Source of the DNA: Halioglobus sp.
GTDB lineage: Bacteria; Pseudomonadota; Gammaproteobacteria; Pseudomonadales; Halieaceae
Length of the DNA stretch: 64,000 nucleotides
Assembly (NCBI GenBank): GCA_029287595.1
Contig: JARFQU010000023.1
Coordinates: 1-64,000 of the forward strand
Reading direction: 5' to 3'
In this document: piece after piece, positions 24,635 through 27,376 of the stretch
How positions within the stretch are numbered: the first letter of the stretch is position 1
How the letters are laid out: each line of letters starts with the position of its first letter
Notes under the pieces: generated by a model
What the model saw: the letters and a program-made list of their open reading frames with translations, nothing else
Databases searched by the model: none
Told to the model about the DNA's origin: nothing
Position numbers and translations under genes: made by a program

Positions 24635-25879
24635 TTAGAGGGGATGCACCCTCACCGGGAGGGAGGTGTAACCCCGTACGAAGTTTGATTTAACCCGCTC
24701 CGGTTCGCCCACAACCTCCACGTGGCTGAAGCGCCGCATGATCTCCTCCCACAGTATGCGCAGTTGCATCTCCGCCAGGCGGTTGCCCATGCATCGGTGT
24801 ATACCGAAACCGAAGGATATATGGTGGCGGGGATTGGCGCGGTCGATGATGAATGAGTCGGCGTTGTCGATAGCGGATTCATCCCGGTTACCCGACAGAT
24901 ACCACATGACCACCTTGTCTCCCTGCTTGATCTGTTTGCCCTGGAAGATCACGTCGTGCTTGGCGGTGCGACGCATATGTGCCAGCGGGGTCTGCCAGCG
25001 AATGATCTCAGAGACCATGCCGGGAATCAGGCCATGGTTGGCCCGCAGTTTGTCGTACTCAGCCGGGTTTTGATTCAGGGCCAGTATGCCCGCGGTGGCG
25101 GAATTGCGGGTGGTGTCGTTGCCGCCAACTATCAACAGGATGATATTGCCCAGGAATTCCATGGGCCTGTCCACCAGGTCGGCGGTGTTGGGGTCGCGCT
25201 GTAACAGCGAGATCAGCTCGAAGCCGCCGTCGTCGCGCCCCTTGCGCTCGTGCCAGATGCGAGTGAACGTTTCCAGGCAATCCATCAGGGCGGGTATGCG
25301 CTCCTCGGGCGATGTGTCGCCGCCAGCGATTTCCGGCGAGCCTGTAGCCATATCCGACCAGTAAGTCAGCTTACTGCGTTCCTCAAAGGGGAAGTCGAAC
25401 AGTGTGGCGAGCATCTGTGTGGTGAGGTTGATGGAAACGTCATCCACCCAGTTGAACGTCTCTCCCACAGGCAGGTTATCCAGGATTTCCACCACCCGGG
25501 AACGGATCAGGGGTTCCATCTGTGCCAGATTCTGTGGAGCTACCACTGGCTGCGCCGCGCGGCGTTGTACATCGTGCTTGGGAGGGTCCATGGCGATGAA
25601 CTGTTCCACTCTCATGTCATCTGTCAGGTCGCCAATGATGATCGTGGGCTCGGAAGAGAACACCTCGTAATTGCTGTCCACGGCAACGATATCGTCGAAA
25701 CGGGTGATAGACCAGAACGGACCAAAAGGGCTTTCCGCCTGGTAGTGCACCGGGTCTTCCTCCCTCAGTCGGGCAAAATAGGGGCGCCAGGCATCCTGCT
25801 CCAGCAAGCGAGGGTCACTGAAGTCAATCTGCTCCAGGGGTGCAGTCAATGGGTCGGGTAGCTGTTGTGGTTGATTCAT
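24635..25879 (-). CDS. Cytochrome P450, CYP153 family (alkane terminal hydroxylase)
   Basis: This 414-aa soluble P450 resembles the CYP153 family, which hydroxylates the terminal carbon of medium-chain alkanes and fatty acids. Visible marks are MDPPKHDVQRRAA (C-helix), the I-helix oxygen site GGNDTTRN, the ExxR in SEIIRW, and the heme loop FGFGIHRCMGNRLAEMQ with Cys363. The C-terminal VVGEPERVKSNFVRGY matches CYP153 proteins closely. It is the second gene of a two-gene operon behind a [2Fe-2S] ferredoxin, 29 bases apart. Electrons would come through that ferredoxin, but no ferredoxin reductase gene is nearby. The divergent AraC regulator probably controls it. Confidence 0.9.
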   Translation of the reverse strand: MNQPQQLPDPLTAPLEQIDFSDPRLLEQDAWRPYFARLREEDPVHYQAESPFGPFWSITRFDDIVAVDSNYEVFSSEPTIIIGDLTDDMRVEQFIAMDPPKHDVQRRAAQPVVAPQNLAQMEPLIRSRVVEILDNLPVGETFNWVDDVSINLTTQMLATLFDFPFEERSKLTYWSDMATGSPEIAGGDTSPEERIPALMDCLETFTRIWHERKGRDDGGFELISLLQRDPNTADLVDRPMEFLGNIILLIVGGNDTTRNSATAGILALNQNPAEYDKLRANHGLIPGMVSEIIRWQTPLAHMRRTAKHDVIFQGKQIKQGDKVVMWYLSGNRDESAIDNADSFIIDRANPRHHISFGFGIHRCMGNRLAEMQLRILWEEIMRRFSHVEVVGEPERVKSNFVRGYTSLPVRVHPL

Positions 25880-25908: not shown

Positions 25909-26229
25909 CTACATCTGGTATTCAGGAAGGCGTATCACCATGCCGTCCATTGCGTCTGATACCTGTATCTGGCAACTCAGCCGCGACGTCTCGGTGCGAT
26001 CCGGGCGCATGCCCAGCATGGATTCCTCCATCGGGTCGGCAGTGCCGGCAAGCTCGCTCCAGTCCTCGGCGATAAAACAGTGGCAGGTGCCGCAGGCGCA
26101 TGCGCCGCCGCAGTCGGCATCAATCCCGGGTACGCTGTTGGACAGCACGTTCTCCATCAGGGAGATACCGCTCTGGACTTCAATGGTGTGATCCTGGCCG
26201 TTGTGTTCAATGACAGTGATGGTGGGCAT
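25909..26229 (-). CDS. [2Fe-2S] ferredoxin, putidaredoxin type
   Basis: This 106-aa ferredoxin should pass electrons to the CYP153 P450 encoded just downstream. Cluster ligands follow the adrenodoxin/putidaredoxin spacing C-x5-C-x2-C-x36-C at Cys40, Cys46, Cys49 and Cys86. Two extra Cys (44 and 51) lie in the binding loop. The ATG at 26229 was chosen for its strong AGGAGG site and standard length; reading further upstream would run through the promoter. Its leader contains the candidate AraC-dependent promoter. Confidence 0.93.
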   Translation of the reverse strand: MPTITVIEHNGQDHTIEVQSGISLMENVLSNSVPGIDADCGGACACGTCHCFIAEDWSELAGTADPMEESMLGMRPDRTETSRLSCQIQVSDAMDGMVIRLPEYQM

Positions 26230-26260: not shown

Positions 26261-26289
26261 AGTGTAGCGTCCAGGTTTTGCCATGTTAT
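26261..26289 (-). promoter_or_regulatory. Candidate activator-dependent promoter of ferredoxin-P450
   Basis: Reading leftward, a weak -35 (ATAACA, 26284-26289) and a -10 (TACACT, 26261-26266) are 17 bases apart. They place the transcription start about 25 bases before the ferredoxin ATG. The -35 touches the proximal AraC-type repeat at 26289, the arrangement of a class II activator promoter. Confidence 0.45.
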
Positions 26290-26324
26290 GTTATTTATTG
26301 CCAACTACCTGTTATTTGTTGACA
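26289..26324. promoter_or_regulatory. Tandem 15-bp operator, AraC-family type
   Basis: TGTTATTTATTGCCA (26289-26303) and TGTTATTTGTTGACA (26310-26324) are direct repeats matching at 13 of 15 positions, with a 21-base period (two helical turns). This is the classic half-site layout for AraC-family regulators. The pair lies between the divergent ferredoxin-P450 operon and the AraC-type gene. Confidence 0.7.
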
Positions 26325-26359
26325 ATGGGCGACCTCGGCATCGCTTGGAGTTGTTCCTG

Positions 26360-27376
26360 GTGGACAGTTATTTTATTCCCAGTAGTTATTCGCGCATCGT
26401 GGCCCGGGAGTTGGGGCTACAGGAGAAAGAGCTGCCGCGCTTGCTGCGTAAGACCGATCTGCCAGTTGAAATCCTGATGCCCGGTGACGAAACCCGCCTG
26501 ACCGGACGGCAGCAATTGCAGGTTTTGGACAATGCCCAGGGCATGCTGGCCAGACCGGAACTGGGCTTGCGCCTGGGACGCCAGTTACAACCCTCGGCTC
26601 ACGGGCCTTTGGGTTATCTCGCCATGAGCAGTCCCGACGTGATTAGCTCCCTCGAAGCCCTGCGGGACTTTTTGCCCGCGCGCCTGCCGGTGGTGAAACT
26701 GGATTTGGACCTGCAGGTTGACTGGCTGTGCTGCTCGCTGGAGATAAAACTGGAGGCGAACCCGGAAGAGCAGCGAATACTGCAGGAATCCTTCGCCCTG
26801 GTGATCCAGTCTTTTGTGGAGGCCATATTGGGTCGACAGGTAACGGAAGCGCAGATTGAAATGGCCCACCCCCGGCCGGCCTACCATGCTGTGTATGCCG
26901 ACTACATGCACTCACCGGTTGATTTTGCCTGTAGCGGGAATCGTTACCTGCTCCCGGCGAACCTCGCCCGGGTGTCTAACGTCTCTGGGGATCCCGAGTC
27001 GTATGCCCTTGCCCAGAATCTCTGTCTGAAATTGCTGGAACAGGTACCACCCACTGCAGTGTCCACTGCCGACCGGGTGCGGCACATCCTGTTGATGCGT
27101 ACTCCCGGCTCGGTAACCGAAACCGACGTCGCTAGAGCGATGTATATTTCCAAGAGGACCCTGGCGCGCCGACTGGAGCAGGAGGGAAACAGCTATCGCC
27201 AGATACGTGAGAAGTTACTGGCGGAAATGGCAGCTCGACATTTGCAGGAATCAGGCATGTCTGTTGAAGCCGTTGCGGCCCTGCTGGGGTATAACGACGC
27301 AGCGGCGTTCCACAAGGCCTTCCGGCGCTGGTATGGGCAGAGCCCGGGGCAATTTCGTCGGATCACAGTCGCCTAG
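26360..27376 (+). CDS. AraC-family transcriptional regulator
   Basis: This regulator (about 338 aa) has an N-terminal sensory domain of the arabinose-binding-like class used by OruR/ArgR-type and alkane regulators. Its C-terminal AraC DNA-binding domain (about residues 235-338) has two helix-turn-helix units: TETDVARAMYISKRTLARRL and MSVEAVAALLGYNDAAAFHKAF. The GTG at 26360 was chosen because it follows a GGAG site, starts the conserved SYFIPSSYSRIV segment and leaves the tandem operator outside the coding region; earlier starts would read through the operator. It probably activates the divergent ferredoxin-CYP153 operon, and perhaps itself. Confidence 0.87.
   Translation: MDSYFIPSSYSRIVARELGLQEKELPRLLRKTDLPVEILMPGDETRLTGRQQLQVLDNAQGMLARPELGLRLGRQLQPSAHGPLGYLAMSSPDVISSLEALRDFLPARLPVVKLDLDLQVDWLCCSLEIKLEANPEEQRILQESFALVIQSFVEAILGRQVTEAQIEMAHPRPAYHAVYADYMHSPVDFACSGNRYLLPANLARVSNVSGDPESYALAQNLCLKLLEQVPPTAVSTADRVRHILLMRTPGSVTETDVARAMYISKRTLARRLEQEGNSYRQIREKLLAEMAARHLQESGMSVEAVAALLGYNDAAAFHKAFRRWYGQSPGQFRRITVA

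Follow-up and report, generated by a model that had tools for sequence, protein, structure and literature searches.

Genes and direct repeats of the CYP153 locus

The locus lies in a window of 64,000 nt, i.e. the whole stretch of DNA analysed. It comprises an fdx-CYP153 gene pair, a divergently encoded CypR-like araC gene and, in the intergenic region between them, a pair of similar 15-mers. In window positions the genes and features are:

24635-25879, minus strand: CYP153-type cytochrome P450 (predicted); its PDB matches are P450 alkane hydroxylases
25909-26229, minus strand: fdx, 2Fe-2S ferredoxin, first gene of the operon (Pfam PF00111, E 3.5e-9)
26261-26266, minus strand: -10 of the fdx-CYP153 promoter, TACACT; half-site 1 is exactly 22 bp away
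26284-26289, minus strand: ATAACA, a non-conserved hexamer at the -35 position of the fdx promoter
26289-26303, plus strand: predicted operator half-site 1, TGTTATTTATTGCCA, the one nearer to the fdx promoter (proximal); conserved in related loci
26298-26326, plus strand: candidate regulator promoter from a promoter scan, with -35 TTGCCA (26298-26303), 17 nt and -10 GACAAT (26321-26326)
26310-26324, plus strand: predicted operator half-site 2, TGTTATTTGTTGACA, the distal one, at a 21-bp spacing to half-site 1
26360-27376, plus strand: CypR-like AraC-family regulator, GTG start, GGAG at 26347-26350, PF12625 and PF12833

The P450 shares full-length similarity with solved CYP153 enzymes (8b2p, E 5e-166; 3rwl, CYP153A7, E 7e-153) and is predicted to be a CYP153-type alkane hydroxylase. 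In the regulator an Arabinose_bd sensor domain is combined with an AraC HTH domain. Among NCBIfam models NF053784 (CypR) fits it best, with 361.5 bits, 200 bits ahead of all other models. Since this score is under the equivalog cut-off of 500 bits, the regulator is named CypR-like here. Its gene is oriented divergently from fdx-CYP153, as is that of CypR.

Inspection of the sequence confirmed two 15-bp direct repeats, as the earlier note had described them: TGTTATTTATTGCCA and TGTTATTTGTTGACA are identical at 13 of 15 positions and have a period of 21 bp, the spacing of AraC/XylS-type tandem operators. No other 15-mer of the window recurs at spacing 21 with 13/15 or more bases identical. Across 5000 dinucleotide-shuffled versions of the intergenic region a 13/15 pair at spacing 21 never arose, and one at any spacing from 16 to 60 was found in 0.46%. 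The family consensus of the half-site is GGTYATTTnTTGMCA, which reads TGKCAAnAAATRACC towards fdx. Allowing up to 3 mismatches, the tandem consensus matched one site in the own genome and none in the reversed control. Single half-sites were not enriched genome-wide in the own genome (67 compared with 51 for reversed controls at up to 2 mismatches), and the only other exact half-site lies at the start of a glycogen-synthase-like ORF. A wider regulon in this genome was rejected on account of the single tandem site and the unenriched half-sites. Extension of the half-site by the AT following repeat 2 was likewise rejected, because these bases are missing after repeat 1. A partial third repeat is found at 26269-26283 (TTTTGCCA) with a spacing of 20.

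Predicted promoters at the repeats

On the minus strand the fdx promoter consists of ATAACA (26289-26284), a 17-nt spacer and TACACT (26266-26261). The leader that follows, measured from the expected start to the ATG at 26229, is about 25 nt long. All of these elements agree with what was first claimed, including the weakness of the -35, which the proximal repeat abuts or overlaps. The distance between repeat and -10 is fixed: of the 18 close loci, 17 have a TANNNT hexamer that starts 22 bp past the operator and the eighteenth has it at 23, and no offset besides 22 recurs in more than one of these loci. In all 11 CYP153 loci that are more distant, a hexamer of the form xAxxxT is found at offset 23. 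Agreement of the -35 position with TTGACA averages 1.7 of 6 bases across the 18 close loci, which is chance level. A fixed -10 together with a non-conserved -35 is the layout expected of an activator-dependent class II promoter.

The plus strand holds a second pattern. The last six bases of repeat 1 are TTGMCA; after a further 17 bp comes GMCAAT, made up of the end of repeat 2 and the two bases behind it. This arrangement is conserved and represents a sigma-70-like candidate promoter aimed at the regulator. Repeats serving binding only should be alike, and these are not: T10/T11 is retained in 62/64 cells of repeat 1 versus 24/64 of repeat 2, and a T two bases past the repeat occurs in 23/32 cases after repeat 2 versus 8/32 after repeat 1. 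This asymmetry points to a regulator promoter embedded in the repeats. Bound regulator may then occlude its own promoter. As a correction to the first reading, the operator looks two-sided, with the fdx promoter on one side and an apparent regulator promoter on the other.

The well-formed TTGCCA-17-GACAAT promoter and the conservation of its extra bases also fit an explanation in which the repeats serve mainly autoregulation and the fdx promoter is controlled otherwise. We regard this as very improbable, because the fdx -10 keeps a single offset from the operator and because of two relatives of the window's own genus (L041 and L042) in which the regulator is located downstream of, and convergent with, fdx-CYP153. 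Both retain the operator upstream of fdx, 60-odd bp from the fdx start, and have none upstream of the displaced regulator gene. The operator thus belongs to the target operon. Loss of the repeats from close relatives that keep the gene pair, named in the earlier note as an argument against an operator, was looked for and did not occur.

Distribution of the tandem site and its recognition

CypR-like genes were detected in 78 related genomes, with the same tandem site between regulator and fdx. A motif-free scan, in which self-similarity was scored at 45 spacings in 33 related intergenic regions, gave 21 as the best spacing in 29 of them. Of the exceptions, one region favoured 22 and another 42; this last region contains three copies in 21-bp steps. 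With two mismatches allowed, the consensus had 31 matches in 390 genomes of the order and none in the reversed control, counts that are not independent as the compared loci are related. CypR-like genes adjoin 27 of these matches. The remaining four represent one recurring second site in a single genus, about 16 kb from the CYP153 cluster, where the operator is located between two AMP-binding genes of the acyl-CoA ligase type (L056, L059, L080 and L081, from four genomes); within 1.5 kb of these copies no regulator gene was found.

In a search of 398 genomes across the phylum the matches were confined to the own order. Marinobacter sp. NP-4 has a 27/30 match, and weaker sites are present in M. 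adhaerens (23/30) and Acinetobacter radioresistens (24/30). Among 3000 shuffled upstream regions, 23/30 was reached in 0.1% and 25/30 in none. A scan of the genome contigs with a single protein query gave just one remote match.

The operator also precedes alkB. In one family of the order (L049, L072, L073 and L077) it lies between a CypR-clade regulator and an AlkB-type gene, whose product has the FA_desaturase fold and matches the solved alkane 1-monooxygenase AlkB (8f6t, E 4e-27). A -10 hexamer is present at offset 22 in all four cases, and L077 carries three operator copies in 21-bp steps. At a further locus (L054, 3839-5844) a CypR-like gene with an operator is divergent from a PF10118 metal-dependent hydrolase gene rather than from fdx-CYP153. 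In genome G030 (L045, G030:C19, 1463-5938) two fdx-CYP153 operons flank one CypR-like gene; the divergent operon alone has an operator, the second has none. A 52-residue C-terminal CYP153 remnant occupies the equivalent position in L050. The double operon and the remnant suggest an old duplication around the regulator, of which different copies were lost in different genera.

Operator base 4 is T in both repeats in 7 loci including the window, and not T in both in 30. Regulator residue 319, located in the recognition helix of the second HTH (HTH2), is Lys in exactly these 7 and Arg in the other 30, an agreement of 37/37 that corresponds to about three inferred co-changes. When all regulator columns were ranked by association, residue 319 came first and residue 316 of the same helix second. 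The seven Lys319/T4 loci are distributed over three clades, and when 464 control sets of equally sized clades were examined, no column split any of them perfectly. An Arg facing the G that pairs with C4 is a classical contact. This covariation is the strongest evidence that the CypR-like regulator family reads the predicted operator. The window regulator alone has His at residue 318 (27311-27313), where other operator-bearing regulators have Arg, and both repeats of the window operator start with T rather than G. This may be another covariation, seen in one genome.

The query has about 20 AraC-type matches in the genome, and similar tandem sites also lie upstream of PF12625 regulators that are more distant (L030, L033 and L035-L037), so a different AraC-family protein of the cell might bind the repeats in place of the adjacent one. 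There is little chance of this, given that base 4 and residue 319 of the linked regulator change together without exception, that 27 of the 31 operator matches adjoin a CypR-like gene and that the own genome has a single tandem site. The sites of the more distant AraC regulators are spaced at 21 or 22 bp and match at 25-27/30, which is why the operator type may extend to the whole subfamily. That a functionless repeat arose by chance in a locally A+T-rich intergenic stretch is scarcely conceivable, since no shuffle yielded it at spacing 21 and its conservation over many genera, with zero reversed-control matches, already contradicts chance.

Proposed mechanism and relation to known systems

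The comparison strongly supports reading the repeats as an AraC-type tandem operator next to a class II promoter, on the grounds of the period, the -10 offset, the non-conserved -35, the linkage to fdx and the covariation. With a probability of roughly 0.87, the tandem repeat is the predicted operator of the adjacent CypR-like regulator and mediates class II activation of fdx-CYP153 as well as autorepression. Two regulator monomers would sit head to tail on the two 15-bp direct repeats. The proximal monomer would end at about the -35 of the fdx promoter, which seems to have no working -35, and would recruit RNA polymerase to the fixed -10. With ligand present, ferredoxin and the CYP153 alkane hydroxylase would be made. 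Bound regulator should repress itself, because the -35 and -10 of its candidate promoter lie within these two sites. Binding, activation and autorepression themselves are what we infer from a sequence comparison that covers the repeats, their period, the fixed -10, the missing -35, the regulator/target linkage and the protein-DNA covariation. Medium-chain n-alkanes are the presumed ligand class, taken from published relatives only.

We incline slightly towards a broader view, in which two copies of GGTYATTTnTTGMCA at 21 bp would be the switch that AraC-type alkane regulators throughout the order have in common, whether the genes they control are those of CYP153, AlkB or fatty-acyl activation. 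Recognition would follow a one-residue code, in which HTH2 Lys319 or Arg319 specifies T or C at base 4, and the regulator promoter would be built in. The site provides a concrete, searchable predicted operator for a family of alkane sensors with poorly defined binding sites, and indicates that P450-type and AlkB-type alkane oxidation can have one regulatory site in common. With residue 319 and base 4 it also offers one residue-base pair whose exchange could test recognition. Prediction of alkane regulons in environmental genomes and construction of alkane biosensors are potential uses.

AraC of E. coli, acting on araI1-I2, uses direct repeats with a 21-bp period for class II activation, and its own gene is divergent and autoregulated. 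The window locus shares the period, the class II layout and the divergent regulator gene, but shows no sign of distant looping sites, and its half-site sequence is unrelated. XylS binds Pm of the TOL plasmid at two 15-bp direct repeats 6 bp apart, each with a box A and a box B, next to the -35 (PMC5481539). The window repeats have the same geometry, and TGKCAAnAAATRACC has the same layout, whereas sequence, ligand and subfamily differ, the window regulator having a PF12625 sensor domain. AlkR/alkM of Acinetobacter and other AraC-type alkane regulators likewise control alkane hydroxylases, and the predicted operator precedes alkB-like genes in L049, L072, L073 and L077. Between alkR and alkM, however, an inverted repeat has been described (PMC8784404) in contrast to the direct repeat found here.

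The closest relative is CypR acting on Pfdx. CypR of Dietzia and Alcanivorax has been reported as an activator of CYP153 with C8-C18 n-alkanes (PMC8784404). Hence this kind of regulation is already known, and the view of the sensor as largely uncharacterised does not hold. In A. borkumensis SK2 (Alcanivorax borkumensis) and Dietzia sp. DQ12-45-1b, as in the window, an AraC-family gene is divergent from fdx-CYP153, and there it encodes an n-alkane-responsive activator (PMC8784404). CypR is also the best-scoring NCBIfam model for the window regulator, which nevertheless stays under its cut-off. The Dietzia operon includes a ferredoxin reductase gene that the window operon lacks, and the characterised Dietzia locus has only a weak operator match (20/30, within chance) and no clear copy. 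Clear copies were also absent from the actinobacterial loci L087, L089 and L090 (Dietzia, Rhodococcus and Mycolicibacterium plasmids). Their araC-fdx intergenic regions share a loosely similar short element, TGTnAaTTnGGCTCA, just before the regulator, which is possibly a diverged half-site. To the known CypR control our analysis adds an operator consensus, the covariation between residue 319 and base 4, a candidate regulator promoter within the repeats and the occurrence of the operator at alkB as well, for none of which a prior description was found in the open papers searched, a scope outside which the primary Dietzia and Alcanivorax CypR reports fall.
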